Translations under genes and position numbers: made by a program | Shown here: positions 10,640-33,126 of the stretch, piece by piece | Numbering within the stretch: the stretch's first letter is position 1 | Layout of the letters: each line of letters opens with the position of its first letter | DNA from: an uncultured bacterium | GTDB lineage: Bacteria > Verrucomicrobiota > Lentisphaeria > Victivallales > UBA1829 | NCBI GenBank assembly: GCA_949297765.1 | Contig: CASFTV010000035.1 | Location: 1-34,778 of the forward strand | Direction of reading: 5' to 3' | DNA: 34,778 nt | The notes under the pieces: model-generated | The model's database searches: none | Told to the model about the DNA's origin: nothing | Seen by the model: the letters and a program-made list of their open reading frames with translations, nothing else

Positions 10640-10727
10640 ATTGACCGTCCGCCCTTTCCGAATCGAAAAACCGTTTTCCCGCCCCCACGATTCCCCGGAC
10701 TCTTCTCGGGAACACGTTGAAGACGGC

Positions 10728-10754
10728 AAAAAGAAAGCCGTCACTCGGACGGCT
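10728..10754 (-). terminator. Terminator of the tRNA-Met gene
   Basis: Reading the minus strand just after the tRNA, AGCCGTC and GACGGCT form a perfect 7-bp stem around CGAGT. The stem is followed by TTCTTTTT, a textbook rho-independent terminator. Confidence 0.85.
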
Positions 10755-10764
10755 GATATTCTAT

Positions 10765-10839
10765 TGGTAGCGGGGGATGGAATTGAACCATCGACCTTCA
10801 GGTTATGAGCCTGACAAGCTACCACTGCTCTACCCCGCA
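10765..10839 (-). tRNA. Initiator-type tRNA-Met (anticodon CAT), CCA encoded
   Basis: The 75-base gene folds as a full cloverleaf. The acceptor 5' strand is TGCGGGG and the 3' strand CCCCGCT, then A73 and an encoded CCA. Position 1 and position 72 are both T and cannot pair, the hallmark of an initiator tRNA. The D-stem GAGC/GCTT contains the A11-T24 pair, also initiator-specific. The anticodon loop is CTCATAA. The anticodon stem is TCAGG/CCTGA, so only two of the three consecutive G-C pairs of standard initiators remain; 29-41 is A-T. The D-loop is two bases shorter than in E. coli tRNA-fMet. Confidence 0.93.
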
Positions 10840-10869
10840 ATAACGGCTTGCTTTCCGCAAGTACATTAT

Positions 10870-10897
10870 ACTATATCACTCTTCCCGATAATTTCAA
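10870..10897 (-). promoter_or_regulatory. Promoter of the tRNA-Met gene
   Basis: On the minus strand TTGAAA (10892-10897), a 16-bp spacer and TATAGT (10870-10875) stand 31 bases before the tRNA 5' end. A second TATAAT-like word overlaps immediately downstream. Confidence 0.6.
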
Positions 10898-10946
10898 GCC
10901 GGAATTGTTTGTTTTTCCAAAAGAAATCCGGGACACAGGGAAAAAA

Positions 10947-11810: not shown

Positions 11811-11820
11811 GGATTCCGAT

Positions 11821-12096
11821 TCACAGATGAACAACCGTCACGCCGTCGGCCCCCGGCGCACCGATATCCTCGCCGGGGAAATAGATCCGGCAGGGCAGTC
11901 TTCCGCTTGCCAGCGCTCCGCGAATCCGCGAACGCAGTGTCCCGCTTCCGTTTCCGTGAATCACAAGAACACTCTTCCCCGATCCCGAATGCCGGGTCAG
12001 GAGAGAACGGAGAAGCGCCATTGCCTCATCCACCGTCATTCCGTGAAGATCGACCGAGAAATCATACGCGGAGGTCTGTTTCCAAGCTCGGCTCAT
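11821..12096 (-). CDS. Stand-alone Smr-domain protein
   Basis: This 91-residue protein is almost entirely one Smr domain, known as the C-terminal nuclease domain of MutS2. It shows 'VDLHGMTVDEAMALL' (the DLHG motif) and 'VLVIHGNGSGTLRSRIRGAL' (the HGxGxGxLR motif). Stand-alone Smr proteins can be structure-specific nucleases or act on RNA at stalled ribosomes, but the role here is unknown. A GGGAAG site lies 5 bases before the ATG, which is rather close. It sits between the lactonase and AraC genes on the same strand, with 59 bp to the former. Confidence 0.88.
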   Translation of the reverse strand: MSRAWKQTSAYDFSVDLHGMTVDEAMALLRSLLTRHSGSGKSVLVIHGNGSGTLRSRIRGALASGRLPCRIYFPGEDIGAPGADGVTVVHL

Positions 12097-15631: not shown

Positions 15632-15654
15632 TCGGAAAAGGCCAACACGCCAAA

Positions 15655-15698
15655 ACCGGCCCCGGAGCGCCAGAAACGCTTCGGGGCCGGTCTTTTAT
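15655..15698 (+). terminator. Strong bidirectional terminator between sialate esterase and polysaccharide operon
   Basis: The stem ACCGGCCCCG / CGGGGCCGGT, extended by AGCG/CGCT, has a short loop. It is followed by CTTTTATT on plus and by a TTTT run on minus. It fits termination of both converging transcripts. Confidence 0.88.
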
Positions 15699-15719: not shown

Positions 15720-17339
15720 CTATTTCCGGACGCGGCGAATCACTCCGCAAAGATGCGGGAAAGCCACCAACGGCTGCCGGAAAAACAGATTCCAGAGCTT
15801 CCGTATTCTGGAATGATACTTTGAAACCAATGGAGACAGCAAACGGGTGCATATCGTTCCGTTCATCGGAGCGGAGCATCGTTTCAGCTCGGAGACCGTG
15901 AGGCCTCCCGGTTTCCGGAACAGCAGATTCCCGCGAATCCGGATCCGGCAGAAAGCAAACTCTTCCGGGAACGACGGATCAAAACTCTTTGCCGCCCCGG
16001 CAGATACGATCACGATACTCTCTTCGGAGCAGTTCTTCCACAAGGCCTCCGGTGAAGGAATCCGATTCCCGATGACGATCAGATCGCCCGGGGCGGGATG
16101 AACGATCTCCAGAGAGGGAAAGGTATGGACCGGCCCCACATGGTGCAGAGGTCCGAACGCATTGTCGTCCCGCCAGATTCTTTCATACGAGTCCTCCGTG
16201 TCAAAGGATTCATGAAGAAAGAGTTCCGAGAACGGAGCCGTCAGAGTCAGAAGGCTGACAATGGAACGGTCCATCGTTCCATAAAGGAAAATTCTTGCCG
16301 GGGAGAACTCGGATGCACACCGTGCGGCAAGCATCGCAGTCGAAGATATGAATGGAACTGCCGCGGGAGAAATCCGATGGGAAAGCCAGAGGATCCAGTC
16401 TCTCCACGAAAAAGCCGGCGGTTTTGACGGCGTTTCAGAAAGCTCATCCGTTCCGGCTTCCGCGCGGGATTCCGGCAGTTCCAGATCCGCCAGCCCCCAG
16501 GTCTCCGGGTTCTCCGCAACTCCTATATGAATGGGATAAAATGTTGTTCTTCGTTTTTCTTTCTGAATCAGCATGTGAAACGACGGTTCAAAATCATATG
16601 CACAAATTCCATACCCCATCGTATTGACGACCGAAGTCCGATTGGAAGACCGCAGAGCCAGATCGACATCATTATATCCCCACCCGGCGATCCGCTCGTC
16701 CACACCACGAAGGGAGAAAAAAACAGAGCGTTCCAGAATAAACAGCCCGTAGCTTCCCATCATGCTGCGGGCCGTGTTGTCGCAGAGCATCCACGCATCT
16801 CCTGCAAGCAGGAGAGATTCGATTCGTTCCGGAGAAGAAAAATCATGCGCTTCTCCTGCATAAAAGGGAATGTTTTTCCGGGGAACGGAAATCACCGCCT
16901 CCGCGGGATTGAAGGAAACAGGAATTTCTCCGGAAAGAATCCCCAGAAGATTCCGGAGAGCATGCGACGTCAGCAGAATATCACCAGGCATGATTCCCAG
17001 ATACGCCCCTTTTGCCCGGCGGAGAGCGGCATTGAACGCAATGGACTGGCTGAAGGGAGAAAACGGAGGATTGTATCCGGCGGCTAGAGCAGGCGGAATC
17101 TCAATAAAACGAACCATCCGCGCGGCTTCCGCGGAAAGATGGAGGGTCCGGGAGAGAGGAATCTCGCTGTTCCAATCGGCGAAAACGACTTCCAACTGCT
17201 CTGCGACGCCGGCCCGCCGGGCGCTCCACGCGAGAAAATTCATCGCCTGGACAAAACGCCGCTTGAAATTGAATCCGTAGTTGTCGTTGCGGCCGGAAAG
17301 ACAAAGAGAAAGGAGCGGGGGATTTTCTGTATTATTCAT
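15720..17339 (-). CDS. GT2-type glycosyltransferase with unknown C-terminal half
   Basis: The protein has 539 residues. The N-terminal 240 residues look like a GT-A fold transferase of the galactosyltransferase/chondroitin-polymerase type. This is shown by 'LSLCLSGRNDN', 'FNAALRRAKGAYLGIMPGD' (Asp120 probably in place of the DxD) and 'DERIAGWGYNDVDLALR' (214-230), the acceptor and metal motif of Glyco_transf_7C. Residues about 300-539 are not recognised; they contain alternating strands ('ARIFLYGTMDRSIVSLLTL', 'GDLIVIGNRIPS') suggesting a second Rossmann-like domain. The ATG at 17339 overlaps the stop of the upstream nucleotidyltransferase gene in an ATGA, indicating translational coupling. 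It is the last gene of the operon and ends before the shared terminator. Confidence 0.78.
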   Translation of the reverse strand: MNNTENPPLLSLCLSGRNDNYGFNFKRRFVQAMNFLAWSARRAGVAEQLEVVFADWNSEIPLSRTLHLSAEAARMVRFIEIPPALAAGYNPPFSPFSQSIAFNAALRRAKGAYLGIMPGDILLTSHALRNLLGILSGEIPVSFNPAEAVISVPRKNIPFYAGEAHDFSSPERIESLLLAGDAWMLCDNTARSMMGSYGLFILERSVFFSLRGVDERIAGWGYNDVDLALRSSNRTSVVNTMGYGICAYDFEPSFHMLIQKEKRRTTFYPIHIGVAENPETWGLADLELPESRAEAGTDELSETPSKPPAFSWRDWILWLSHRISPAAVPFISSTAMLAARCASEFSPARIFLYGTMDRSIVSLLTLTAPFSELFLHESFDTEDSYERIWRDDNAFGPLHHVGPVHTFPSLEIVHPAPGDLIVIGNRIPSPEALWKNCSEESIVIVSAGAAKSFDPSFPEEFAFCRIRIRGNLLFRKPGGLTVSELKRCSAPMNGTICTRLLSPLVSKYHSRIRKLWNLFFRQPLVAFPHLCGVIRRVRK

Positions 17340-18043
17340 TTCTGACAATCCGTTTTAAAAAGCTGCTGCGCCGTCTGAAAACTTTCCGGCGTTCCGATAT
17401 CGATGAATGTTCCGTCAGCGGGAAATGCGGCAAGTTCTCGGTTTTGCGCCAGAGAAGGGAACAGTTCCTTTTCCAGCGAACAGACGGTCTTTTCCGGAAT
17501 CCGTTCCAGGACCTCCCGGCGGAAACAGTAGATTCCGGCATTGATGAGTCCAGCGCCCCGGAATGATCCTTTTTCTTCAAAGCGGGAAACCATTCCATCG
17601 GGAGCAAGGGAAACTCTTCCGTAGCGGGAGACATCCTCCATGCGCCGCAGACAGATCGCAGCCGGCGCGGCGCTCCGGCGGGCGAAGGAGAGAAATGCGT
17701 TCAAGTCGACCTCAAAGTAAGAATCCCCGTTCATCACAAGGAATTCCGGATCGGAGGCTTGTTTCAGAGCAAGTCTCAACGCGCCGGCGGTTCCGAGAGG
17801 ACGATCTTCGATGGAAAACTTCAGATCGAGGGAGAGGGAGGCTCCCCGGAGCGCTGAGATCAGACTCTCCGCCCGATATCCGGCACACAGGATGACTCTC
17901 CGCCCGCCGGCCTGCTCAATCTGCCGCAGGAGGCGAAGGATAAATGGAGTTCCCGCCACTTCTGCTGCCACTTTCTGGCGATCGGGAACCGCAGTCTGCA
18001 GGCGAGTTCCCATTCCTCCGGCAAGGATCAGCGCCGTCAGCAT
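17336..18043 (-). CDS. hddC: HddC-like sugar-1-phosphate nucleotidyltransferase
   Basis: The protein has 235 residues from the ATG at 18043, which has GGAGG 7 bases upstream; the longer frame to 18073 lacks one. 'LILAGGMGTRL' (5-15) is the nucleotide-binding signature, with Lys24 in 'DRQKV', and 'SIEDRPLGTAGALRLAL' and 'VMNGDSY' (103-109) supplying the metal Asp. Best fit is D-glycero-alpha-D-manno-heptose 1-phosphate guanylyltransferase (HddC), which makes GDP-heptose. Glucose- or mannose-1-phosphate transferases share the fold, so the sugar is inferred mainly from the HddA-like kinase in the same operon. Its start codon is separated by one base from the FkbM gene stop, and its own stop overlaps the GT gene start. 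Confidence 0.8.
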   Translation of the reverse strand: MLTALILAGGMGTRLQTAVPDRQKVAAEVAGTPFILRLLRQIEQAGGRRVILCAGYRAESLISALRGASLSLDLKFSIEDRPLGTAGALRLALKQASDPEFLVMNGDSYFEVDLNAFLSFARRSAAPAAICLRRMEDVSRYGRVSLAPDGMVSRFEEKGSFRGAGLINAGIYCFRREVLERIPEKTVCSLEKELFPSLAQNRELAAFPADGTFIDIGTPESFQTAQQLFKTDCQK

Positions 18044-18044
18044 C

Positions 18045-19055
18045 TCATTCCTCCAACTCTTCCGGATATGCAATGAGTGTAATTTCTCCGTAGGGGACCT
18101 TCAAGGAGCGAATCCGGAACGAGTAATGCAGATTCATCTCCCGGAGGGTCTGATAAATCCCGAACAATTCCTCCGGATTATGATAAATGGAAAGCAGAAG
18201 AAGCGGCCGGAATGTCCGGATCGTTTTCATCGCGCCCCGAAGCATTTTCAGACCCATTCCTTCCAGATCCGCCTTGATCAGCCCGACGTCAAAAGAGCTT
18301 CCGACAAACGAATCCAGCGAAATCAGTTCGATCGGAATCCCGGATGAACCGGATTCAAGACAGGAGAAATCCATACCGCCTGAATCAGCGGTCTCAATCC
18401 GCTCTGAAACATCGGAAAGCCCCTTTTCAATCAGATCGAATTTTTTCTCTGAAATCCGATTTTTTTTCATGGTCTGTCGATACTTTTCCGCGTTCAGAGA
18501 AGACGGTTCAAAGGCATAGATCTTCCGAGGGGAATATTGCAGAAATGCGATGGAGGAATCTCCATTATAAGCTCCGGCATCAATAAAATCCTTATTCCGG
18601 ATATACTCTTTGACCGATTCCGGCACCATAGTCAACCCGTTGTGATAAACCAGCGATTCCGGAAAAGGTGGAGCAATATGATATCGCCTGCCCCATTTTC
18701 GGGAAAGGCGCTGTTCCTTCCGGAAAGTTTCCCGCAATCTTTTTTCCGGAATACATCCTTCCACGTCAAGACAAAAGAAAAAAGGTTCCGGAAAAGAAGG
18801 AAAACTATCCGGAATTTTTCTTTGAAATTCAACAAACTCTTTCAGCAGCGTCCGTTCTTTTTCCGTAACGTCGGAAAATACAGCATCAATCTCTTCCGCA
18901 GAGACATTGGAAAGGAGATTTCTACGCTCATTCAGATTAAGGAAAAGATATCTGTCCTGAAACGTTCCTTTCAGAATCTTCAACGCGGTTGCGGTTTCCA
19001 TCGACATTCGCCGCAGAAGGAAATCATGACAGGCCTTTTGAATTTTTTTTATCAT
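18045..19055 (-). CDS. FkbM-family methyltransferase
   Basis: The protein has 336 residues. The C-terminal half is an FkbM SAM-dependent methyltransferase: 'FIDAGAYNGDSSIAFL' (157-172) is motif I, 'KIYAFEPS' the acidic motif, then 'ISLDSF' and 'VGLIKADLEGMGLKMLRGA', the family's usual end. The first about 130 residues are a helical extension with no recognised domain. In polysaccharide loci these enzymes usually O-methylate sugars, here probably the operon's product or its glycan. GAGAGAAGA precedes the ATG, 12 bases after the stop of the previous gene. Base composition is lower in GC than most neighbours. Confidence 0.86.
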   Translation of the reverse strand: MIKKIQKACHDFLLRRMSMETATALKILKGTFQDRYLFLNLNERRNLLSNVSAEEIDAVFSDVTEKERTLLKEFVEFQRKIPDSFPSFPEPFFFCLDVEGCIPEKRLRETFRKEQRLSRKWGRRYHIAPPFPESLVYHNGLTMVPESVKEYIRNKDFIDAGAYNGDSSIAFLQYSPRKIYAFEPSSLNAEKYRQTMKKNRISEKKFDLIEKGLSDVSERIETADSGGMDFSCLESGSSGIPIELISLDSFVGSSFDVGLIKADLEGMGLKMLRGAMKTIRTFRPLLLLSIYHNPEELFGIYQTLREMNLHYSFRIRSLKVPYGEITLIAYPEELEE

Positions 19056-19067
19056 TCTTCTCTCTCT

Positions 19068-20036
19068 TCACCAGTAACATCCATCTTCCACGATCTCATA
19101 TCCCGTCGGCCGTTCGGAGGGCAGCGGATTCACCCAGTGCTCATTAAAAAGGCGCTGACCAAATTCCGGCGGATACTGTTTCTCCCAGCGGGCGCCCTTG
19201 ATTCCGAAAATCAGCTGCAGCGCTCCGCCGATATGAACAGCCTGTTTTCCGCAGCGCTTACAAAACGCGCCAAGAAACATTCCGTATGCTCCGGCTCCAA
19301 TCAAAGCGATGTCATAATCAATTTCCCGGATTTTTTCGTACATGGACTCCAAAGCCTCAAACCAGTCCGAATACGGAAATTGTTCCGAAAGGATTCCGTT
19401 GCTCTGAACGGCTTTCATCGTGATCAGTTCAAATTCCGGGAGGACCTCCCGACCGGGGAACAGCAGATCCCGGCGGGGATACTGCGAGCGGATGGTTTCT
19501 GTGAACGGATGAATCACCAGAACTTTTTTCCCTTTCAGCATTCGCAGCCATGGACGTTCCGCAAGAGTCGCATGATCCACAAGGCAGTTGATATCAACAG
19601 CTCGTATGGAGGGATTGTATTTCTGAATCAAGGTTTCTTCCCCTCGCTGACCTATTACACCGAGAATGTCGATTTCAGGAAGAAGCTGCAGACTCTCATA
19701 GGCAAACCGACAGAGTTTTTCATTCGTCGGAGGGAAAAAACCGGCAACTGTAGCCATCTCATTTTGTAGATATGGCTGGAATTGAACTGAACTTTCCCTG
19801 CAATGCTTCAAATAATGCATAACGACGGCAATCTCATTCCATCCGAAGCGGGCGATCAGACACGGATCTCCTTTTTCCAGCATCCGGGCAATCTGATCCA
19901 CGCCTTCCTGATCTTTATAGATATAACATTCCCCAAGAGACATTTTCGTCGGCCGATGTTCCGGACAACGAATATACGAATACACCTTCTGCACCTTTTG
20001 CGGAAGCAGATTCCAGATAAACTGTTTGATACTCAC
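19068..20036 (-). CDS. Uncharacterised polysaccharide-locus protein, possibly a GT-D-like transferase
   Basis: This 322-residue protein is not securely recognised. It begins at a GTG whose GTGA overlaps the stop of the radical SAM gene, with AGGAGA 6 bases upstream. It shows 'CLIARFGWNEIAVV' near residue 60, reminiscent of the 'RFGDGE' region of GT-D type glycosyltransferases, and 'DYDIALIGAGAYGMFLGAFCKRCGKQAVHIGG' near the C-terminus, a Rossmann-like segment with glycines. 'GGALQLIFGIKG' follows. A glycosyltransferase acting on the operon's sugar is plausible but is inference from context. No membrane segment or signal peptide is evident. Confidence 0.6.
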   Translation of the reverse strand: MSIKQFIWNLLPQKVQKVYSYIRCPEHRPTKMSLGECYIYKDQEGVDQIARMLEKGDPCLIARFGWNEIAVVMHYLKHCRESSVQFQPYLQNEMATVAGFFPPTNEKLCRFAYESLQLLPEIDILGVIGQRGEETLIQKYNPSIRAVDINCLVDHATLAERPWLRMLKGKKVLVIHPFTETIRSQYPRRDLLFPGREVLPEFELITMKAVQSNGILSEQFPYSDWFEALESMYEKIREIDYDIALIGAGAYGMFLGAFCKRCGKQAVHIGGALQLIFGIKGARWEKQYPPEFGQRLFNEHWVNPLPSERPTGYEIVEDGCYW

Positions 20037-21514
20037 GGTCTCTCTCCTGTTTCAGATAAAATGGCACGCTGCAGACGAAGCGTATTTACAGACTGAACAT
20101 AGTTGCGGACCTCCCTGCCGAATGTCCGTTTCAGCATTTCCAGATACTCCGGGCTGCTGTTGTATTCCACAAAAGCCTGATCCCGGAAAGCCAGAATCTC
20201 CCCGGCGGTCAGACGGTCGTTCGCAAGCGGATAACAATCGTAAGAGTGCTGGGAATAGGCGCTCCAGCTGCGCGGAAGCCGCTCCGGATGCGTACGCAGA
20301 GTCTCTTCGTACAGCCGCGATCCCGGATACGCCATCACCGAATACATATTGGCATATTCGCAATTCAGATCCCTGGCCAGCTCCAGCGTTTCCCGCATGG
20401 TCTCCTCCGTATCGGCGGGAAGACCGAAAATATAATTGCCGATCACACGAATCCCCGCCGACTGAATCCGCCGGACCACCCGTTTGATGTCCTCTCTGTG
20501 CAGATTTTTTGTCACGTCATCCCGCACATGCGGATTTGCAGACTCAATGCCCAGCGCAAACCAGTTGATCCCCGCCTTCTTCAGCAGCGGAAGAACCTCG
20601 AAATCCACCGTATCGACCCGCGCATACACCCAGATGTTCAGGTCGTAATTGCGTTCAATGATTCCATTCACAATCGGCATGTAGTGGTTTTTATCCAGAA
20701 TGAACAGTTCATCGACTATTTTCAGATTCTTTACATGATACCGCTCCACCAGAAGATCAATCTCCTCCAGGACCCGTTCCGGAGAACGGTAGCGGATCAT
20801 ATGCTTCCCGAACGGGGCGTTGATGCAGCAGAACGAACAGTTGAACGGACAGCCAAGACTCGTATACAATGCCGCATACGGCATCCGGTGTTCGATATCA
20901 TCGAAACAGTGCCAGTTGTGCGCGCGGTAAAGCTGCATCGGCAGGAGGTCCCACGCGGCAACCGGGAGAAATGCGTCCAGATCCCGGATCAGCGGATAGC
21001 GCTCCGTATGACGCGGACCGGTATCCGTCCTCCACCAGAAACCACCGATCTTTTCCGGTTCGAACCTCCCTGTTCTCAGCTGTTCGAGCAAAGTTTCCAG
21101 AGTCTGAACCGCCTCTCCGTCTGCGACGAAATCACAGGCTTCCTCCCGCAGGGTCCGCTCCGGAAGCGCCGAGGGATGCAATCCTCCCAGAACCACGTTC
21201 GGAACCCCGGCCGTCTTCAGCGCCCTGCAGATCGCGCCCGCGGACGGCATGTTCTGTGTTGATGCGGACGGCTGGGATCCATAGACGATCACCGCCGCTG
21301 CCCGCGGATTCATTTCTGCCGTCCGCTCCGCGGTCTCTTCCGGAGAAAGGTTTTCCGCATTTGCGTCGATCACCGCCACAGAGAATCCCTTCAAACGCAA
21401 ATACGCGGCAATCACAGCGATCCAGAAGGGCGGCTCAATCGCAACCGCCTCCAGCCCAAGACTCTGGAAAACCTGTTTTCTGTTCCCAGGATTGATCAGG
21501 ATAATATCTGTCAT
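20033..21514 (-). CDS. B12-binding-domain radical SAM enzyme
   Basis: The protein has 493 residues. Residues about 1-150 form a Rossmann-type cobalamin-binding domain ('VLGGLHPSALPER', 'EEACDFVADGEA'). The radical SAM barrel follows with 'SLGCPFNCSFCC', whose Cys222, Cys226 and Cys229 bind the 4Fe-4S cluster. 'GIESANPHVRDDVTK' and 'VIGNYIFGLPADTEETMRETLELA' are typical of class B enzymes. Such enzymes methylate unactivated carbons or phosphorus, or rearrange or epimerise substrates. In a sugar operon a C-methylation or epimerisation of the sugar is a reasonable guess. AAGGGAAG precedes the ATG; 45 bp separate it from the transketolase genes, and its stop overlaps the next start. Confidence 0.87.
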   Translation of the reverse strand: MTDIILINPGNRKQVFQSLGLEAVAIEPPFWIAVIAAYLRLKGFSVAVIDANAENLSPEETAERTAEMNPRAAAVIVYGSQPSASTQNMPSAGAICRALKTAGVPNVVLGGLHPSALPERTLREEACDFVADGEAVQTLETLLEQLRTGRFEPEKIGGFWWRTDTGPRHTERYPLIRDLDAFLPVAAWDLLPMQLYRAHNWHCFDDIEHRMPYAALYTSLGCPFNCSFCCINAPFGKHMIRYRSPERVLEEIDLLVERYHVKNLKIVDELFILDKNHYMPIVNGIIERNYDLNIWVYARVDTVDFEVLPLLKKAGINWFALGIESANPHVRDDVTKNLHREDIKRVVRRIQSAGIRVIGNYIFGLPADTEETMRETLELARDLNCEYANMYSVMAYPGSRLYEETLRTHPERLPRSWSAYSQHSYDCYPLANDRLTAGEILAFRDQAFVEYNSSPEYLEMLKRTFGREVRNYVQSVNTLRLQRAILSETGERP

Positions 21515-21559
21515 AATCTTCCCTTACTGCTTACAAGTACATTTCATCATATTTTTCAT

Positions 21560-22492
21560 TTATCTTGATCCTTTCATCAATTCATGAATTTGTTCGGAAG
21601 AAATACCCAATCTTGAACGCAGCTCTTTTCTTGAAGGACTTCCATAAACAAATTCATTGTCAGGGGCCCCGAATCGAAGGATTTCCGGGATATGACTCAA
21701 ACGAGAACCATACTCTGCAAGAATCTGACAGAAATGCCCAAATACTCCTCCATATTTCAAAGATTCTTCAAATATTACAATCTTTTCCGATTGTTTTAAT
21801 ATTGTGAGCGCTGTTTCTCTATCAAAGGGTTCCATCGTATGATAATGAAAAAAACCTGGAGGATTCACACTGCTTTTATATTCCAGAATAGCGGGAGCTA
21901 CCGCAGAAAAGACCTCTCCTCCCGTTACAAAGGAAATTCTTCCTGCTGGCAAAATACAACGGGCGTTCCCTAAAGAAATCGGAGCAGTTTCTATATATCC
22001 AACGTCTGGTTCCCCATATTTTCCGACTCGTAAATATGCCGCACATTCCTTCTGCAACAATGTAGAAAATAAAATTTTCATTTCATCCGGTCCGCCAGGT
22101 GTAACAACAATTTCTCCCGGGAGAGCAGTCATAAGCATGAGATCATCCGGAGCATAGTGGGTCACTCCTGCATTGGCATAGGTATATCCACCTCCCGCTC
22201 CGACCACAATTACAGGGAGTTTATGATAGGAAACTGCCACCTTCAGCTGTTCATATGGACGGGATGTCATAAACGAAGCTATCGAGTAGACAACCGGACG
22301 AAAACCTTCTAATGCGAGACCCGCAGCAGCATTCACAAGTTGAGCTTCTGCGATTCCAACATTAACAAAACGTTTTGGAAATCTCTGTGCGATGGAATCG
22401 AAAACCTGAAACCCCAGATCGCCCGTCAGAAAAACAATTTTTTCATTGCGTTCCATTTCGGTTTCCAAGACATCAGCAAATGCCTTTCTCAT
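21560..22492 (-). CDS. Split transketolase-like enzyme, C-terminal (pyrimidine-binding) subunit
   Basis: The protein has 310 residues from the ATG at 22492, which overlaps the stop of the N-terminal subunit in an ATGA. It corresponds to the pyrimidine-binding and C-terminal domains of transketolase. 'FVNVGIAEAQLVNAAAGLALEG' carries the ThDP-activating Glu49, 'YTYANAGVTHYAPDDLMLMTALPG' is the substrate-side loop, and the remainder is the transketolase C domain ('VIFEESLKYGG'). Together with its partner it would transfer a two-carbon ketol or acyl unit. GC content is clearly low (21 of 60 bases G or C at 21601-21660), unlike the GC-rich SDR upstream, suggesting separate acquisition. Confidence 0.88.
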   Translation of the reverse strand: MRKAFADVLETEMERNEKIVFLTGDLGFQVFDSIAQRFPKRFVNVGIAEAQLVNAAAGLALEGFRPVVYSIASFMTSRPYEQLKVAVSYHKLPVIVVGAGGGYTYANAGVTHYAPDDLMLMTALPGEIVVTPGGPDEMKILFSTLLQKECAAYLRVGKYGEPDVGYIETAPISLGNARCILPAGRISFVTGGEVFSAVAPAILEYKSSVNPPGFFHYHTMEPFDRETALTILKQSEKIVIFEESLKYGGVFGHFCQILAEYGSRLSHIPEILRFGAPDNEFVYGSPSRKELRSRLGISSEQIHELMKGSR

Positions 22493-23331
22493 ACATATTC
22501 TCCCAGTTTGCAAGGCAATGCCAGTTCCTCAAATGCCTGTTTAACCTCATTTTCCCGTGGCGTACGGTAGAACCATACTTGATCTTTCTCCATAAAATGG
22601 ATACCGGCTCCTCCGGTTGTATCTGCAAGAATTACAACAGGCCATTTTTCAATCGAATTCAAACGGGCAAAAATTTGAAGAAGTTCTCCAATGTCATTTC
22701 CATTACATGAAATTACAGTCCAGCCAAAGCTGGCGAATTTCTCCGCCAATGAAGTGTTTCCCGTCAAATGATCATTCAATGATGTAGCCTGCATATTGTT
22801 ATGATCTACGATCGCAACAAGATTTTTCAGTTTCTGAGCCGCTGCAAACATGGCCGCTTCCCATACACTCCCCTCATTTGTTTCTCCATCCCCCATCAGA
22901 ACAAATGCACGACTTTCAAAATCATCGTTCATCTGGCATCCCATCAACATGCCGGAAGCCATACCAAGCCCGTAGCCAAGACTCCCGCTCGAAAATTCCA
23001 AAAGAGGAAACATTGTTCGACATGGATGATTTGACAATCGTGAATCTGTTTGACAATATGTTCCCAATTCTTTTTTCTGAATCAGAGAAAACTCCGCCAT
23101 TGCGGCATAAAGGGCACTCGCTGCATGGCCTTTGCTTAAGAAAAAACGATCCCTCTTTTTTATGCTCTTCTCTGTTGGATGTTTCAGGACTGCGCCAAAA
23201 AGGACGGTCAACAAATCTGCACAACTCAAAGCCGAACTCAAATGAGAAGATTTTCCTGAAAAAGCCATCATAATGCAGTTCCCTCGAATTCGGGCTGCAC
23301 TTTTCTGCAAAGATTCTAACAATTCATCCAT
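22489..23331 (-). CDS. Split transketolase-like enzyme, N-terminal (ThDP-binding) subunit
   Basis: The protein has 280 residues from the ATG at 23331, preceded by AGGAGA at 8 bases; an in-frame extension to 23391 lacks support. It has the diphosphate-binding motif 'GDGETNEG' (147-154) and 'VDHNN' (175-179), 'SKGHAASALYAAMAE' (66-80) with the substrate His, and 'FSSGSLGYGLGMASG' (113-127). Its length equals the N-terminal half of transketolase. Split transketolases occur in core metabolism of some anaerobes, but this pair sits inside a sugar-nucleotide operon, which points to a dedicated role. AT-rich codon use sets it apart from the two preceding genes. Confidence 0.88.
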   Translation of the reverse strand: MDELLESLQKSAARIRGNCIMMAFSGKSSHLSSALSCADLLTVLFGAVLKHPTEKSIKKRDRFFLSKGHAASALYAAMAEFSLIQKKELGTYCQTDSRLSNHPCRTMFPLLEFSSGSLGYGLGMASGMLMGCQMNDDFESRAFVLMGDGETNEGSVWEAAMFAAAQKLKNLVAIVDHNNMQATSLNDHLTGNTSLAEKFASFGWTVISCNGNDIGELLQIFARLNSIEKWPVVILADTTGGAGIHFMEKDQVWFYRTPRENEVKQAFEELALPCKLGEYV

Positions 23332-23353
23332 ATACCATTCTCCTATCCGGTCC

Positions 23354-24292
23354 TCAGACGTTGCCGTACTGGTTGTTCTTGATGATGGCATAGGTTTTTA
23401 TCAGCTCTTCAATTCCGTCATCGAGGGAATACTTCGGCAGATATCCGGTCTTCTCTATCTTTTCGTTGGAGACGATGTAGTCACGCTTGTCGGGATCCTC
23501 TCCGATCTTCGACTCCAGATACACAAACCGGGGCAGATGCTTCCGGATCACCTCGCACAGCTCCAGCTTGGAGAGATTCGCCGTGGAAAGACCGACATTG
23601 TATGCGTTCCCCTTCATCGCGGAAAAATTCTCGATCACATGCGCAAACGCCCGCGCAACATCCCGCACATGAATGTAATTGCGCTTGAAATGGCCTTCAA
23701 AAATCACCACCGCACGGTCGTTCACCGCGCGATAGACAAAATCATTCACCAGAAGATCCATCCTCATCCGGGGACTCGCGCCGAACACCGTCGCAAGACG
23801 CAGACTCACACTGTTCTCCCGGGAGAGCACCGCCTCCTCCGCCTCCACCTTCACCCGGCCGTACAGGGAGACCGGACGCAGCGGCGTCTCCTCTGTACAG
23901 AACTTCCCGCTCTCCCCGATTCCGTATCCGGAGTTCGTGATCGGCATCACTATCTGCTGCTCCGGAGAAGCCAGACGGACCAGCATCCGGACCGCATCGC
24001 GGTTCACCGTCACCGCCCCCACCTTGTCCTGGTCGCAGAGCGGAGCGCCGACCAGCGCCGCAAGCGGAATGAGAATGTCGAACCGGGGAACCAGCTCCTT
24101 CATCAGCGACTCATCCCGGCAGTCCCCCCGCACCACATGAAATTTCGGATGGGCGCAGCAGTCAAGCAGGGAGTTCTGACGGAACATGAAATTATCCAGC
24201 ACCGTCACTTCGTATCCGAGGGAGAGCAGATACGGCGTCATTGTCGAACCGAGATAGCCGCCTCCCCCCGTAATTAAAATCGTCTGACTCAT
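23354..24292 (-). CDS. Extended-SDR NAD-dependent epimerase/dehydratase
   Basis: This 312-residue sugar-nucleotide SDR has 'ILITGGGGYLGS' (5-16) for NAD binding, 'ITNSGYGIGESG' (118-129, with Ser121), and catalytic 'SLYGRVK' (Tyr144, Lys148). 'GDCRDESLM' provides the adenine-site Asp and 'RNYIHVRDVARAFAHVI' is a family hallmark. Such enzymes oxidise C4 to drive epimerisation, dehydration or reduction. Together with the other SDR in the operon it may work as a C4-oxidase or 4-reductase on GDP-heptose, as proposed for pairs in Campylobacter heptose loci. GAGGTGATGG precedes the ATG; 3 bases separate it from the DegT gene. Confidence 0.88.
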   Translation of the reverse strand: MSQTILITGGGGYLGSTMTPYLLSLGYEVTVLDNFMFRQNSLLDCCAHPKFHVVRGDCRDESLMKELVPRFDILIPLAALVGAPLCDQDKVGAVTVNRDAVRMLVRLASPEQQIVMPITNSGYGIGESGKFCTEETPLRPVSLYGRVKVEAEEAVLSRENSVSLRLATVFGASPRMRMDLLVNDFVYRAVNDRAVVIFEGHFKRNYIHVRDVARAFAHVIENFSAMKGNAYNVGLSTANLSKLELCEVIRKHLPRFVYLESKIGEDPDKRDYIVSNEKIEKTGYLPKYSLDDGIEELIKTYAIIKNNQYGNV

Positions 24293-24295
24293 CCA

Positions 24296-25468
24296 TCACC
24301 TCGCTTGATTGAGTATCCGGCAAAGCTCCGACACGCGTTCCGGCGGGAGCGTCGGATAGTTTCCTATGTAATATCCGAATTCATGAATATGTTCCACCTC
24401 GGGATACTTCCGGTATTCATCCGGCGGAACGATTCCCTTCAAATACGGCTGACGGAGCTGGTTGCCTCCGCCCGCGTTCCCTCTGCGGAATTCGATCCGG
24501 AATTCCCGCATCCGGGATTCCAGACGGTCCCGGAAAGCAAAATCCTTTTCGCGGATCACCAGCGGAAACGCATAGTTGGACGATCCCTCCAGACGAAACT
24601 CCGTCCGGAAGCGAACCGAATCAATCTCCTCCAGAAACTGATGGAAATTCCGGCTTCTCAGACGGTTGTTCGCATCCAGACGTCCGAGCTGGGAAAGCCC
24701 AAGCACCCCTCCGATCTCCGTCCCGCGGAAATTGCAGGACGGAACCAGAAATGTGAAATCCGGCGACACCAGCGGATTTTCCTGCGCAATCGCTGCCTTC
24801 CGTTCCGGATCTGAAATCTCCCGCGCCATCCCGTGGGAACGGTACATCCGGACCGCTTCATAAAAATCATCGGAATCCGTACACACCATCCCCCCCTCGA
24901 TCGTGCTCATGTGGTGTGCAAAGTAAAACGAAAAATCCGATGCCAGACCGAACGATCCGAGCTTTTTCCCGTTGTGGGTCGCCCCATGCGATTCGCAGAC
25001 ATCCTCGATCAGCGGAATATTCCGCCGTTTCAGCTCCTCCAGAAGACGGTCGCTCAACGCATCGAATCCCTGCACATGCGTAAGGAACACTGCGCGGGTC
25101 CGGTCGGTCACCGCCTCCAGAATCTTCTCTTCCGCCATTCCGAGATGATGCGGATCAATATCCGCGAACACGGGCGTGAATCCATGCAGCAGCACCGATG
25201 AAATATCGGAAACCCACGTCAGCGGCGGGACAATGATCTCTCCTCCCCCTCCGTACAGATATTGGAATGCGCCGATCGTGATAAAATTCGCCGAAGCGCC
25301 CGAATTCACATACACACTGTGCTTTACGCCGAGCCAGCGGCTCCAGGCGCGCTCAAATTCGGCAACCCGTGCCGACTGGGTCAGACGCGGCATGGTCTCC
25401 AGAAATGCGATCACCGCGTTGATATCTTCCCGTGTGATATTATCGTTCATCAGGGGGAACGGTTCCAT
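24296..25468 (-). CDS. DegT-fold PLP enzyme with His at the lysine site (ColD/RfbH-like sugar 3-dehydratase)
   Basis: The protein has 390 residues, the normal length for DegT/DnrJ/EryC1/StrS proteins. 'YVNSGASANFITIGAF' (53-68) binds the PLP phosphate and 'PLIEDVCESHGATHNGKKLG' (152-171) holds the PLP-ring Asp156 and the stacking region. Aminotransferases of this fold have a Schiff-base Lys in 'SFxxxKxxxxGEGG'; here the segment reads 'FSFYFAHHMSTIEGG' (179-193), so His185 replaces Lys. That substitution is the mark of ColD and CDP-sugar E1 (RfbH) 3-dehydratases, which deoxygenate C3 of 4-keto sugars. The start has GGAGGTGCCTG upstream and its A is shared with the stop of the kinase gene (TGATG). 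Confidence 0.87.
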   Translation of the reverse strand: MEPFPLMNDNITREDINAVIAFLETMPRLTQSARVAEFERAWSRWLGVKHSVYVNSGASANFITIGAFQYLYGGGGEIIVPPLTWVSDISSVLLHGFTPVFADIDPHHLGMAEEKILEAVTDRTRAVFLTHVQGFDALSDRLLEELKRRNIPLIEDVCESHGATHNGKKLGSFGLASDFSFYFAHHMSTIEGGMVCTDSDDFYEAVRMYRSHGMAREISDPERKAAIAQENPLVSPDFTFLVPSCNFRGTEIGGVLGLSQLGRLDANNRLRSRNFHQFLEEIDSVRFRTEFRLEGSSNYAFPLVIREKDFAFRDRLESRMREFRIEFRRGNAGGGNQLRQPYLKGIVPPDEYRKYPEVEHIHEFGYYIGNYPTLPPERVSELCRILNQAR

Positions 25469-26454
25469 CAGGCACCTCCGTTGAATACAATTCCCGAGCC
25501 GTCCATTTCAAAATCGAACGGCACATTCAAAAATCCGCTGAGCGCCTCCAGGACCCGGGTTCTCCGGTCGGGAGGAACAAAGAACAGCATGAAGCCGCCC
25601 GCTCCCGCGCCGAGCAGTTTTCCGCCGAGCGCTCCCGCGGAGCGGGCCTTCTCATAAACGCCGTCCAGATAGTCCGAGGAGATCTTCGAAGAGAGTCCCC
25701 GTTTGATCTTCCACGCCTCGTGGAGCAGATGTCCGAATTCCGAGAGATCGGCATCGGAGCGCAGCAGTTCATCCGCCCGTCCCGCCATCTCCGAAAGCTC
25801 GTTCAGCATCGACGCATTCGCACGGATCCGGCTTTTCTGTTCGGCCGCCACCTGAGAGGAGATCCGGCTGATCCCCGTATAGATCAGAAGAAGCGACGAC
25901 TTCAGTTCATCCAGACGGGGCTGTTCCAGATCCAGCGGCAGAACCCGGAACGATCCGTTCCGGTGAAACTGAATCAGATTCAATCCTCCGTACGCACAGC
26001 TGATCTGGTCCTGGCAGCCGACCGTCTCCCGGATCATCTCCTGTTCAATATGAATTGCCGTTTCCGCCAGAAGCCGTTTGGAGGCGTGTCTTCCGGTCAG
26101 GGCGAACATGCTGTTCAGCAGGCCGACGGTGAACGCGGAACTGGAACCGATTCCGCTCCGTGCGGGAATATCCCCGTCGTGAATCACCGAAATCCCCTCC
26201 GGAAGATTGAAGTATTTCAGCACCGCGCGGATCGACGGATGCTGAATGTCGTCCATCTCCCGGATGTTTTCGATCCGCGAATACACCGCGCGGTACTTGT
26301 GGTCGAAAAACGGCGGAAGTTTACGGACATTGAGAAAACAGTATTTATTGATCGCGCAGGCAAGGACCCTGCTTCCATATTCACGGAAATGCTCCGGAAA
26401 ATCGCTCCCGCCTCCGAAAAACGAAATCCGGTAAGGAGTTCTTGAAATAATCAT
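25468..26454 (-). CDS. hddA: HddA-like D-glycero-D-manno-heptose 7-phosphate kinase (GHMP family)
   Basis: This 328-residue GHMP kinase starts 'MIISRTPYRISFFGGGSDFP', closely matching HddA enzymes (usual GGGTD/GGGSD). The ATP loop is 'PARSGIGSSSAFTVGLLNSM' (97-116), and 'GALGGKLLGAGAGGFMLFF' is the C-terminal GHMP motif. HddA phosphorylates C1 of heptose 7-phosphate in the route to GDP-D-glycero-alpha-D-manno-heptose. The isomerase GmhA and phosphatase GmhB needed before and after it are not in this window. AGGAG precedes the ATG, which overlaps the stop of the upstream SDR gene (ATGA). L-fucose and related kinases share the fold and cannot be strictly excluded. Confidence 0.83.
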   Translation of the reverse strand: MIISRTPYRISFFGGGSDFPEHFREYGSRVLACAINKYCFLNVRKLPPFFDHKYRAVYSRIENIREMDDIQHPSIRAVLKYFNLPEGISVIHDGDIPARSGIGSSSAFTVGLLNSMFALTGRHASKRLLAETAIHIEQEMIRETVGCQDQISCAYGGLNLIQFHRNGSFRVLPLDLEQPRLDELKSSLLLIYTGISRISSQVAAEQKSRIRANASMLNELSEMAGRADELLRSDADLSEFGHLLHEAWKIKRGLSSKISSDYLDGVYEKARSAGALGGKLLGAGAGGFMLFFVPPDRRTRVLEALSGFLNVPFDFEMDGSGIVFNGGA

Positions 26455-27395
26455 ACCGTTCTCCTTTCCCGTCCGGCGCGGTACTCTTCGATCATGGCGC
26501 GGATTCCCTCCTCCAGAGAAATGACCGGACGAAGCGGGGAAACCGACCGGAATGCGGAACTGTCCAGCAGTTTGCGGGCGATTCCGTCCGGTCTGGAATG
26601 ATCCCAGCGGATGGCGCCGTGGTATCCCGCACAGGCGGCGATCCGTTCCGCAAGTTCCCGGATTCCGATCTCCTCCGAGGATCCGATGTTGAGCGGTGCG
26701 GGATCCTCCCGGTTTTCAAACAGACTGCATGCGATCCGCGCGAAATCGTCCACATTGAGGAACTCCCGTTTCGGCGCACCGGTTCCCCAGCAGACGACTT
26801 CCTCTGCGTCCGAATCGGCCGCGTCGCAGAAGCGGCGGACCATCGCCGCCATCACATGGGAACGCTCCGGTTCGAAATGATCGTTCCGCCCGTAAAGGCA
26901 GCAGGGAATGAGCGTGATCGTCCGGAAGCCGTACTGCCGGCTCAGATACTGACAGAGACGCAGACCGGCAAGTTTGGCGAGCGCATAGCCTTCATTGGTC
27001 GGTTCCGGGGGACCGGCGAGAAGCGATTCCTCATGGAACGGCTGCGGCGCGTCTTTCGGATAGATGCAGTTGCTCGCCAGAAAGCAGAGTTTCTTCACAC
27101 CGTTTTTCCATGCGCTGGAGATCACATTGTTCTGGATCTGAAGGTTTTCCAGCAGGAATTCCGCCATGAATTCGCGATTTGCCGAAATCCCGCCGACCTT
27201 CGCCGCCGCAAGAATCACATATTCGGGACGCTCCTCGCGGACGAAGTGTTCCACTGCCGCGGCATCCCGCAGATCCAGTTCGGAATGGGTTCTCAGCAGA
27301 AAACCGGAATATCCCGACTCAGAGAATTTCCGAAGAAGTGCGCTGCCGACCATTCCGGTATGTCCGGCGATCCACAGTCTGGCGTTTTTTTGCAT
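26451..27395 (-). CDS. GDP-L-fucose-synthase-like SDR (Fcl/WcaG family)
   Basis: The protein has 314 residues. 'IAGHTGMVGSAL' (9-20) is the characteristic NADP loop. 'AAAKVGGISANREFMAEFLLENLQIQNN' spans 63-90, and 'FLASNCIYPKDAPQPF' (105-120) keeps the catalytic Ser108 and Cys110. 'EPTNEGYALAKLAGLRLCQ' has Tyr137 and Lys141. Classic members epimerise C3/C5 and reduce C4 of GDP-4-keto-6-deoxymannose; heptose-locus homologues do parts of this on GDP-heptose. No GDP-mannose 4,6-dehydratase is in the window, so a heptose substrate fits better than fucose. It is the first gene of the operon, with only a weak ribosome site (GGAA). Confidence 0.86.
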   Translation of the reverse strand: MQKNARLWIAGHTGMVGSALLRKFSESGYSGFLLRTHSELDLRDAAAVEHFVREERPEYVILAAAKVGGISANREFMAEFLLENLQIQNNVISSAWKNGVKKLCFLASNCIYPKDAPQPFHEESLLAGPPEPTNEGYALAKLAGLRLCQYLSRQYGFRTITLIPCCLYGRNDHFEPERSHVMAAMVRRFCDAADSDAEEVVCWGTGAPKREFLNVDDFARIACSLFENREDPAPLNIGSSEEIGIRELAERIAACAGYHGAIRWDHSRPDGIARKLLDSSAFRSVSPLRPVISLEEGIRAMIEEYRAGRERRTV

Positions 27396-29332: not shown

Positions 29333-30055
29333 ATGAAGAATTTGAGAACATTTGCAATCATTGATTATCTGAAACAGAAGAAATATTGTTCGGTCAACGA
29401 GCTGATGGAGCATTTCAGCGTTTCTCCGGCGACGATCCATCGGGATATTGCCAGTCTGGTCCGGAACAATCAGGCGCGGAAGGTCCACGGGGGAGTCGCC
29501 TACATCGATCCGGCGGAAGCGACGGACAAGATGACCGTGCTCTCCTCAACATTTCAGGAACGGATCAACTGGAATCAGAAACTCAAGCACAGGATCTCCG
29601 AACTTGCGATGCGGGAGATCTCGGAAGGGGACATTGTGTTTCTGGATTCCTCGACAACGGTGTTTTTTCTGGCGGAGCGCCTGCTGGAATCCTCGTTTTC
29701 GAATCTGACGATTGTCACGAACTCCGCGATGATCATTCAGAATTTTCACAAATTTCCGCCGCACTATGTTTTGATCTCGCTCGGAGGGACGTTTGATCTT
29801 CAGCTCAATGCGTTTCTCGGACAGGCGGCAATCCGGGAACTGGAACGGCTCTCGATTTCCAAAGCCTTCATCTCCGCGTTCGGAATCGACGGCGATCTGG
29901 TCACGACCAATCACGAATATCACTCCACGCTGCTTCTGAAAGTTCTGGAAGTGGCGAAGAAACGGTATCTCCTGGCGGACCGCAGCAAATTCAACCGTTC
30001 CGGCCTGTTCCGGCTCGGAACGCGCGCCGACTTCGACCGCATTCTCAGCGACTGA
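29333..30055 (+). CDS. DeoR-family transcriptional regulator
   Basis: The protein has 240 residues, normal for DeoR repressors. The N-terminal winged HTH is 'IIDYLKQKKYCSVNELMEHF' with recognition helix 'SPATIHRDIASL', followed by 'ARKVHGGVAYID', the family signature. The C-terminal sugar-phosphate sensing domain has 'GDIVFLDSSTTVFFLAERL', 'LTIVTNSAMI', 'LISLGGTFD' and 'KAFISAFGID', with intact phosphate-binding motifs. It ends 'FRLGTRADFDRILSD', and those last codons are duplicated at 33071. It probably responds to a phosphorylated sugar and may regulate itself and the ADP-ribosylglycohydrolase-family gene upstream. It converges with the first lacI-type gene, 11 bases away. Confidence 0.9.
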   Translation: MKNLRTFAIIDYLKQKKYCSVNELMEHFSVSPATIHRDIASLVRNNQARKVHGGVAYIDPAEATDKMTVLSSTFQERINWNQKLKHRISELAMREISEGDIVFLDSSTTVFFLAERLLESSFSNLTIVTNSAMIIQNFHKFPPHYVLISLGGTFDLQLNAFLGQAAIRELERLSISKAFISAFGIDGDLVTTNHEYHSTLLLKVLEVAKKRYLLADRSKFNRSGLFRLGTRADFDRILSD

Positions 30056-30066
30056 GCCGCCGCACT

Positions 30067-31035
30067 TCAGCGCCGGCAGGGACCGGTCGACGAGCGGATA
30101 TGGAGAATGTTCGGGATGCGGATGGAACCGCCTTCCTCCCCTTTGCCGAGCATCCGCAGACGGAGTTCCTCCAGTGCGCGTTTTGCAATCGTTTCATAAT
30201 CAAAATCCACGGTTGTATGGGGCGGGGTCAGATATTCGGAGATCCCGGGAAGCTCATAAGTGACAAGAGAACAATCTTCCGGAATGCGGTATCCTGCTTC
30301 CTGAATGAATTTTGCCGCATGGACCGCCAGACTCTGATGAATCATGTAAACCGCCGTGAATTTTTCTGAAAGGATGGAGCGGAATGTTTCCCAGCGCTCC
30401 ATCTCCTGCGGGGAGGATAACTGGAAATTGCGGACGGAATCCCCCAGATTCAGCTGTGCGGCGGCTTGCAGAAACTCTTTCTCCCCGCGACGGTAGTTTG
30501 TCTGCATTTCGCTGACAAAATGGACTCGAGCAATTTTCCGGTGTCCGAGTTTTTTCAGATGGCGGAGTACGATCCGGCTTTCCTGGAGGGGATCCGGATC
30601 CACGGAGCAGATCCGGTCGAACACGGTCCCGTAGCTGTTGACCATCACCAGCGGAATGGAACGCTCCTCCACCCACGTCCGCGCCCAGGCCTGATTGTAG
30701 ATCAGAGAAACAACGCCATCGTAAAAATACGGAGAAACCGATTTCAGGGAGGTTTCCGGAATAATCTGACAGATCCAGTTTCGTCCGGCGCTCTCATTGA
30801 TCAGGGCATCCAGCATCCGCTGGGAGTATATTCCGCCGATCCCCTGAGCGATCACCGCGATGCGGACCTGATGGCGGTTTGCGGTGTTCCGGTAGTTGAG
30901 TCTTGCGGCGGCATTCAGAATCCGGGCGCGGACCTCCGGTGCAACATTGGCTTTGCCGTTGAACGTCCGCGAAACCTGCGGACGCGAACAGCCCGCCTCC
31001 CGGGCAAGATCCTCCATTGTAACTTTCCGAGTCAC
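30067..31035 (-). CDS. LacI-family transcriptional regulator, copy A
   Basis: The protein has 322 residues starting at GTG 31035. GTG is chosen because AAGGAG lies at the same distance upstream in both copies, whereas the upstream ATG codons lie before that site. The HTH is 'VTMEDLAREAGCSRPQVSRTFNG' (5-27), followed by the hinge helix 'RILNAAARLNY'. The periplasmic-binding-like sensing domain follows, with 'GVVSLIYNQAW', 'SIPLVMVNSYG', 'LKKLGHRKIARVHFV' and 'PEDCSLVTYE'. The protein is about 89% identical to copy B by eye. It is divergent from the GH36-like gene at 31212 and probably represses it. The inducer is presumably a sugar. Confidence 0.9.
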   Translation of the reverse strand: MTRKVTMEDLAREAGCSRPQVSRTFNGKANVAPEVRARILNAAARLNYRNTANRHQVRIAVIAQGIGGIYSQRMLDALINESAGRNWICQIIPETSLKSVSPYFYDGVVSLIYNQAWARTWVEERSIPLVMVNSYGTVFDRICSVDPDPLQESRIVLRHLKKLGHRKIARVHFVSEMQTNYRRGEKEFLQAAAQLNLGDSVRNFQLSSPQEMERWETFRSILSEKFTAVYMIHQSLAVHAAKFIQEAGYRIPEDCSLVTYELPGISEYLTPPHTTVDFDYETIAKRALEELRLRMLGKGEEGGSIRIPNILHIRSSTGPCRR

Positions 31036-33070: not shown

Positions 33071-33115
33071 CGGCTCGGCACGCACGCCGATTTCGACCGC
33101 ATCCTCAGCGACTGA
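33071..33115 (+). pseudogene. Remnant of a deoR 3' end
   Basis: In one frame this reads RLGTHADFDRILSD then TGA. It differs at one residue from the last 14 residues of the intact DeoR protein (30011-30055). No homologous sequence precedes it. It shows that the duplication carried a fragment of the neighbouring gene. Confidence 0.85.
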
Positions 33116-33126
33116 GCCGCAGCGCT

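Follow-up and report, generated by a model that had tools for sequence, protein, structure and literature searches.

A candidate operon for a GDP-linked, branched 3-deoxy-heptose with an exchangeable thiamine diphosphate enzyme

Two kinds of described system come closest to the locus studied here: those that modify guanosine diphosphate (GDP)-heptoses, and those in which an enzyme using thiamine diphosphate (ThDP) attaches a carbon branch to a keto sugar. For the first kind, GDP-3-deoxy-4-keto-heptose has been made in vitro from Cj1427 of serotype HS:2 combined with the 3-dehydratase of serotype HS:5 (PMC10680097), and a heading of the same paper describes the resulting 3-deoxy-heptoses as novel. 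For the second kind, two-subunit ThDP enzymes of the alpha-keto-acid-dehydrogenase type, which accept ketones, are tied to keto-sugar branches (PMC12247030), and pairs of the AviB1/AviB2 type have been put forward as the enzymes that attach acetyl branches at C4 (PMC4753412). The present analysis concerns an eleven-gene operon at positions 15720-27395 of a 34,778-nucleotide stretch of DNA (hereafter the window), which lies on contig C35 (CASFTV010000035.1) of the 4.2-Mb genome of an uncultured bacterium of the Victivallales (GCA_949297765.1). The operon unites GDP-heptose modification and ThDP-dependent C-branching, each known separately, the ThDP enzyme being a transketolase split into an N half (TKn) and a C half (TKc). 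With a probability that we put at roughly two in three, and on the basis of sequence comparisons, the operon would make a GDP-activated 3-deoxy, C4-branched heptose attached to a surface glycan.

The GDP-heptose intermediate and its gene cassette

The second of two short-chain dehydrogenases/reductases (SDR) of the operon, SDR2, matched PDB entry 6vo6 with 388.9 bits over residues 1-311 of 312, the next solved relative scoring 71 bits. We take 6vo6 and 6vo8 to be Campylobacter Cj1427, a GDP-heptose C4-dehydrogenase, and SDR2 is a candidate enzyme of this type. The two sugar SDRs listed in the initial annotation both belong to the NAD epimerase family, but the key enzyme among them, SDR2 with its 6vo6 match, had been missed. 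For the DegT-fold protein, the best solved matches were the WbdK/ColD entries 2gms, 3b8x, 2r0t and 3gr9. Its His185 falls in the column where 2gms has His and 2r0t has Lys, which confirms the histidine type proposed initially, so that both marks of the ColD type, a His replacing the Lys that binds pyridoxal phosphate (PLP) and ColD as best match, were found. The Cj1427-type and ColD-type genes adjoin in the operon, and their products together should yield GDP-3-deoxy-4-keto-heptose.

Relatives of the DegT protein were searched among the GTDB species genomes with a four-protein alignment (A1), and the best 80 of 355 were analysed with their surroundings (loci are designated by L numbers). Using the eleven window proteins as tblastn queries, HddC was detected in 72 of the 80 loci, HddA in 70, SDR2 in 69, the radical S-adenosylmethionine (SAM) enzyme in 61, SDR1 in 51 and the transketolase pair in 35, another ThDP pair being present in 39 more; the co-occurrence of hddA, His-type DegT and transketolase genes envisaged by the initial annotation does exist in other genomes. 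Many contigs end early, and counts were also made on the 48 loci whose contigs extend 9 kb or more to either side of DegT (full-flank loci). HddA, HddC, SDR2 and a ThDP gene lie beside DegT in 46 of these 48, so their grouping is more than chance; the radical SAM gene is present in 40 and SDR1 in 35. The gene order is often interleaved, for instance HddA-SDR1-TKn-TKc-DegT-HddC-SDR2. Of the 80 loci, 22 carry a GmhA-like gene and 9 a GmhB-like gene, as counted from BLAST groups whose typed members are L106 (GmhA-like, below its NCBIfam cut-off), L118 and L048 (GmhB-like, above and below the cut-off, respectively). The presence of such genes points to a heptose.

The 80 loci are distributed over Pseudomonadota (35), Nitrospirota (15), Thermodesulfobacteriota (5), Lentisphaerota, Nitrospinota, Omnitrophota and Planctomycetota (4 each), and Myxococcota, Bacteroidota and Verrucomicrobiota (1 each, from metagenome bins that are possibly mis-binned), with 6 unassigned; many of the Nitrospira loci are closely related and the 80 loci are not independent events. 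Within the host class, DegT was recovered at E 1e-80 or better in 8 of 197 genomes, and at this threshold it was absent from the three other listed genomes of the host genus, which suggests that the cassette spread horizontally. A search of plasmids gave no match at E 1e-80. In phages, 49 Synechococcus phage records carry a DegT that is less than 60 percent identical (37 percent in 10 listed). For instance, in Synechococcus phage S-CAM7 (L170:10094-13152), a ColD-like aminotransferase-fold gene, 37 percent identical, adjoins two sugar epimerases; no annotated ThDP enzyme was found in this neighbourhood, where several genes are hypothetical. This one neighbourhood was taken for a colitose-type set, and the phage DegT was not retained as a relative of the cassette.

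Exchange of the ThDP enzyme

A two-component ThDP enzyme was found in 74 of the 80 loci. It is a split transketolase in 35, a mini-E1 pair in 27, an E1 alpha/beta pair in 11 and both E1 kinds in one (L125); in 5 of the 6 loci without a ThDP gene, the contig extends less than 2.5 kb upstream of DegT. The E1 alpha/beta type is pyruvate dehydrogenase-like and is fused in L124. The mini-E1 pair, made of 199 and 178 residues in L073 (8694-9838), matches E1_dh and Transket_pyr, not Transketolase_C. It lies mostly between HddA/SDR1 and DegT and was found above all in Nitrospira and Pseudomonadota, in L073 and 26 other loci of L058-L137, plus L125. In L062, L128, L133 and L134, a single ThDP subunit was detected on the available stretch. 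Judging by position, the ThDP gene belongs to the cluster and usually adjoins DegT or lies close to it. As a control, the same six ThDP queries were run on up to 20 kb around 17 DegT genes of other subfamilies in host-class genomes, and no ThDP gene was recovered, these loci being phylogenetically unmatched and four of the stretches shorter than 13 kb. Three further A1 relatives carry a TKn (L150), an E1 alpha/beta pair (L152) or no ThDP gene (L151, a 4.7-kb contig).

A quick tree of the DegT proteins requires no fewer than 21 changes of ThDP type (minimum 4), a count that depends on many weak branches, the starred ones forcing 2 to 4 changes between the main types; L081 was labelled TK_H though its TKn was not aligned, and L125 was labelled E1. 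These changes indicate that unlike ThDP enzymes replaced each other in one cassette. We take the alpha-keto-acid-dehydrogenase class of sugar-branching enzymes to be of the E1 type, as presumably AviB is. It is chiefly from this exchange, combined with these links between E1-type enzymes and sugar branches, that we argue for C-C bond formation at the C4 ketone by the transketolase as well, and from the exchange we infer that the ThDP enzymes of the cassette would couple a carbon unit to a nucleotide-sugar ketone.

Alternatively, the transketolase could only supply sedoheptulose-7-phosphate, which transketolase makes in known metabolism, in which case SDR1 would reduce C4 and the final sugar would be a 3-deoxyheptose that carries no branch. 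SDR1 resembles GDP-fucose synthase, the family to which the C4-reductases of C. jejuni belong, and C4-reduced GDP-3-deoxyheptoses are products that can be made, as they were in vitro from the C. jejuni enzymes. We consider this alternative unlikely. A ketose phosphate is not an expected product of the E1-like and mini-E1 pairs of other loci, and donor histidines are replaced in most cassette transketolases (His26 by Arg in 25 and His100 by Ile in 26 of 37 aligned rows). Moreover, the host already has an ordinary full-length transketolase on contig C10 (47 percent to TktA), on account of which the operon enzyme was also rejected as a housekeeping gene. C4-reduced GDP-3-deoxyheptoses are described in PMC10680097.

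One locus carries a ThDP gene of yet another kind. In Legionella maceachernii (L086, 19074-20801), a split-transketolase heptose cassette occurs together with an acetolactate-synthase-like ThDP gene. The lipopolysaccharide of this species reportedly contains yersiniose (PMC7867332). Because the acetolactate-synthase-like gene may explain it, yersiniose was not counted as evidence on the cassette product. In another locus, L048, translations of the region that follows the transketolase pair (10280-11853) resemble by eye a NeuB-type synthase and a cytidine monophosphate (CMP)-sugar synthetase, so that this locus possibly holds a second sugar pathway.

Branch donor, proposed pathway and rival readings

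The window transketolase retains the ThDP motif and the catalytic Glu, with equivalents of E. coli D155, G156, N185 and E411 in 4 of 4 cases: TKn keeps the GDG/E and N of the motif, and TKc the Glu411 equivalent. In transketolases, H26, H66, H100, H261 and H473 (E. coli TktA numbering) form the donor and cofactor histidine set, in which residues 26, 66 and 100 contact the donor. The window enzyme has His at 26, 66, 100 and 473 and Phe at 261; His26, His66 and His100 are likewise kept in L104, L074 and L067. Because these three donor histidines are kept, transketolases of the window type are suggested to use a ketol donor and to install a hydroxyacetyl branch. Among the 37 cassette rows, of which L009 and L104 are one locus, two donor histidines are lost in 25, with the Arg and Ile replacements given above, and Gln stands at 66 in five. 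The donor therefore probably differs among loci, and we infer that the common Arg/Ile type uses a donor other than a ketol. D469 was tried as a marker of an altered acceptor and dropped, its column being variable in controls too; S385 and R520, also variable in controls, were not used.

We propose the following route. GmhA/GmhB-like enzymes encoded elsewhere in the genome would isomerise and dephosphorylate sedoheptulose-7-phosphate. SDR2 would oxidise C4, and the His-type DegT would remove the C3 hydroxyl to give GDP-3-deoxy-4-keto-heptose. The split transketolase would then move a two-carbon hydroxyacetyl group from a ketose or hydroxypyruvate onto the C4 ketone, producing a tertiary alcohol and a nonose. 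The ketone of the branch would probably be reduced by SDR1, as is done by YerF in yersiniose synthesis. Finally, the radical SAM enzyme and the FkbM methyltransferase would decorate the sugar or glycan, and the glycosyltransferase (GT) genes would attach the sugar. The steps are assigned from protein families and co-occurrence; the second and third (C4 oxidation and C3 dehydration) are known chemistry of homologous enzymes (PMC10680097), and the first and the last three are deduced. The GDP-linked, 3-deoxy, C-branched heptose imagined by the initial annotation is thus favoured as the putative product by comparative genomics through SDR2, DegT, the GmhA/GmhB-like genes and the ThDP exchange. 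Aurantose (Spirochaeta) was considered as a candidate product and abandoned, the literature search having yielded no paper.

More tentatively, and at slightly less than even odds, the cassette may define an undescribed family of GDP-linked branched heptoses in about ten phyla, built on natural GDP-3-deoxy-4-keto-heptose. The swapped ThDP enzyme (a ketol-using split transketolase, a split transketolase without donor histidines, E1 alpha/beta or the 199+178-residue mini-E1) would set the branch; in the window lineage, reduction of the hydroxyacetyl branch would give a 1,2-diol, which an AprD4-like radical enzyme would then remodel.

Several observations weigh against a C4-branched 3-deoxy-heptose as the operon product. 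The H261 position is His in 47 of 47 aligned control rows and in 34 of 36 cassette rows and Phe in the window, as in L074; the 48 control rows are not clean, as they include loci with the cassette or with transketolase and radical SAM genes (L019, L021, L022, L032, L038, L048, L050, L051, L055) and count several places twice. This Phe agrees with the idea that a branch is installed but that the window donor is pyruvate or a longer 2-keto acid, leading to an acetyl-type or longer branch. E1-type enzymes replace the transketolase in other loci, and E1-type sugar-branching enzymes use pyruvate (PMC12247030). The conservation of His26, His66 and His100 in the window enzyme and in L104, L074 and L067 speaks for the other side, and we regard a 2-keto-acid donor as rather unlikely here.

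Other adverse observations concern the cassette. Of 288 genomes of the phylum searched with TKn, 65 had a match with an E value of 1e-30 or lower. Within the 20 larger neighbourhoods of the best matches, HddA and DegT (62 percent identical) were found together in L038, L048 and L050 alone. In L051 and L055, radical SAM-TKn-TKc blocks stand in other sugar loci that contain neither HddA nor the 62 percent DegT, and in the other 15 the cassette was not seen. By these counts, split transketolases are common and mostly outside this cassette, and L051 and L055 imply that the acceptor of the ThDP enzyme need not be a 3-deoxy sugar. Such blocks would be expected if two pathways shared one operon, a GDP-3-deoxyheptose route and a transketolase/radical SAM module whose substrate is a different sugar or an acceptor other than the nucleotide sugar. 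We hold this to be very unlikely in view of the 46 full-flank loci in which HddA, HddC, SDR2, DegT and a ThDP gene stand together, often interleaved. The branched-heptose reading must also accommodate the two full-flank loci without parts of the set (L084, L136), the ThDP genes located several kb from DegT in L071, L122, L084 and L134, and the weak branches of the DegT tree.

The remaining adverse points concern the heptose supply. For the kinase, NCBIfam HddA (NF049969) is the best model, with 138.5 bits and an equivalog cut-off of 600 that is not reached; the nearest solved structure is 3k85, a D-glycero-D-manno-heptose 1-phosphate kinase (E 1e-38). The HddC-like protein obtained 135.4 bits with NCBIfam HddC (NF049965), below the cut-off of 300, and this model was outscored by the mannose-1-phosphate guanylyltransferase NF052502 (157.6 bits). 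The HddA-like and HddC-like names given initially thus stand as likenesses. In the host, a SIS protein encoded on another contig has GmhA as its best NCBIfam model, with 103 bits for a cut-off of 209, so that an unambiguous GmhA is absent, and a GmhB-like protein, also on another contig, reaches 160 bits for a cut-off of 178.

Operon layout, late genes and known systems

The eleven open reading frames were verified on the minus strand, as announced in the initial annotation, and most of the family names rest on Pfam or NCBIfam profile matches (Table 1); GT2 is to be read as GT2-like. In order of transcription they encode SDR1, the HddA-like kinase, DegT, SDR2, TKn, TKc, the B12 radical SAM enzyme, the GT-D-like protein, FkbM, the HddC-like protein and the GT2-like protein. 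Exact stop/start overlaps (ATGA, TGATG or GTGA) were found at 5 of 10 junctions from junction strings and translations with the best ATG starts, so that overlaps at most junctions, as first described, was slightly generous. The remaining junctions are gaps of at most 45 nt, except SDR2/TKn, which is a 38-nt overlap, or a 22-nt gap if the internal ATG is used.

Table 1. Features of the operon and its downstream end in the window
Feature	Coordinates	Strand	Basis
SDR1, Fcl-like (GDP-L-fucose-synthase-like) SDR, candidate reductase/epimerase	26451..27395	-	NAD epimerase Pfam; best solved matches
HddA-like GHMP sugar kinase	25468..26454	-	GHMP kinase Pfam; NCBIfam HddA best model
ColD-type DegT-fold 3-dehydratase (putative), His replacing PLP Lys	24296..25468	-	DegT Pfam; ColD-set structures; alignment
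SDR2, Cj1427-like GDP-heptose C4-dehydrogenase (candidate)	23354..24292	-	NAD epimerase Pfam; 6vo6 match
Split transketolase N half (TKn), alternative ATG 23331	22489..23391	-	Transketolase_N 103 bits; split transketolase 6yak E 1e-51
Split transketolase C half (TKc)	21560..22492	-	Transket_pyr + Transketolase_C; 6yaj E 2e-23
B12-binding radical SAM enzyme	20033..21514	-	B12-binding + Radical_SAM; CxxxCxxC present
GT-D fold-like glycosyltransferase	19068..20036	-	PF22882 above cut-off
FkbM-family methyltransferase	18045..19055	-	PF05050 / TIGR01444 above cut-off
HddC-like sugar-1-phosphate nucleotidyltransferase, start refined to ATG	17336..18043	-	PF00483 (NTP_transferase); NCBIfam HddC
GT2-like protein, start refined to ATG overlapping HddC stop	15720..17339	-	PF10111 19.1, under cut-off 27.3
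Intrinsic terminator-like hairpin then T's, past last gene	15652..15694	-	fold z -4.1; 0/200 shuffles fold as well

The best solved matches of SDR1 are named GDP-fucose synthase or synthetase, and among its matches we take 7m13, 7anc and 7anh to be heptose reductases; SDR1 has Cys110, Tyr137/Lys141 and His180 in common with two relatives. In the radical SAM protein, Cys222/226/229 are invariant in 13 cassette proteins. AprD4, a sugar 1,2-diol dehydratase, came first in the sequence profile search (97.7 bits, next 83.6) and in a fold search (6fd2, Z 29.9, root-mean-square deviation 3.3 over 411 residues, 19 percent identity) made with an AlphaFold model built on a 13-row alignment (mean predicted local distance difference test score 88). 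It was followed in the latter by MgmA (Z 27.0), CysS (25.8), OxsB (25.5), TsrM (24.7) and TokK (21.7). With NCBIfam, AprD4 (NF033070) scored 65 bits for a cut-off of 500 and HpnJ 149 for 578. In both the sequence and the fold searches, the first rank of AprD4 among the families listed leaves dehydratase and methylase unseparated, and the AprD4 function is not transferable.

Outside the operon, two LacI-family regulator genes have in common a 300-nt stretch (30010-30309 and 33070-33369) that is 90 percent identical between them; a GH31-like gene lies in between, and the arrangement looks like a duplication.

In the open-access literature searched (for one topic, among the matches listed), the combination of these genes was not found described, and no instance was found of the same order assigned to a known sugar, in keeping with the initial claim of novelty. 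Branched sugars are predicted here for Nitrospira, methanotrophs, Planctomycetes, Lentisphaerota and others; to our knowledge, they are not known in these groups. The loci would also give a natural setting to GDP-3-deoxy-4-keto-heptose, a compound obtained from enzymes of mixed serotypes in PMC10680097, and offer many natural cases in which to examine the formation of tertiary alcohols from ketones by split transketolases, a question given as pending in PMC12247030.

Among known systems, the yersiniose and erwiniose routes (YerE, ErwE) are alike in that a ThDP ligase branches a 3-deoxy-4-keto nucleotide sugar; they differ by a CDP-hexose substrate and by an enzyme of the decarboxylase superfamily, not a transketolase (PMC12247030). 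The likeness to caryophyllose and erwiniose drawn by the initial annotation is chemical only, because the ThDP enzymes employed for these sugars are YerE-like and belong to another superfamily (PMC12247030). Consistently, the window transketolase proteins match Transketolase_N and Transket_pyr and not the acetolactate-synthase-superfamily domains of the YerE type. In the yersiniose and erwiniose routes, a ketone reduction comes later. AviB1/AviB2 and Pau11/Pau12 (PMC4753412) and alpha-KADH2 (PMC12247030) share with the window a two-subunit ThDP enzyme tied to C4 branches, but they belong to antibiotic pathways and are of the E1 type, whereas the window enzyme is a transketolase. An E1-type pair, as in alpha-KADH2 systems, is present in 11 related loci plus L125. 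Miharamycin and amipurimycin, which are nucleoside antibiotics, offer a split transketolase. It is proposed to transfer hydroxyacetyl onto a keto sugar, which is unproven there too; the 13 sequences surveyed are said to be all from Streptomycetes, and GDP-heptose is not mentioned (PMC12247030). AprD4 (6fd2) is the closest solved fold to the window radical SAM enzyme, yet it is only 19 percent identical.

The GDP-heptose modification of Campylobacter jejuni (HddA/HddC, Cj1427, HS:5 C3-dehydratase; PMC10680097) likewise involves a GDP-heptose, a C4-dehydrogenase of the same family, a PLP-type 3-dehydratase and an Fcl-like reductase. It differs in that the kinds of enzyme named in the abstract of that paper include neither a ThDP nor a radical SAM enzyme, and in that Cj1427 and the HS:5 3-dehydratase were mixed in vitro, whereas both types co-occur here in natural operons. 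We regard the system as a new pathway assembled from known types of reaction, in which the enzyme that makes the branch can be exchanged.

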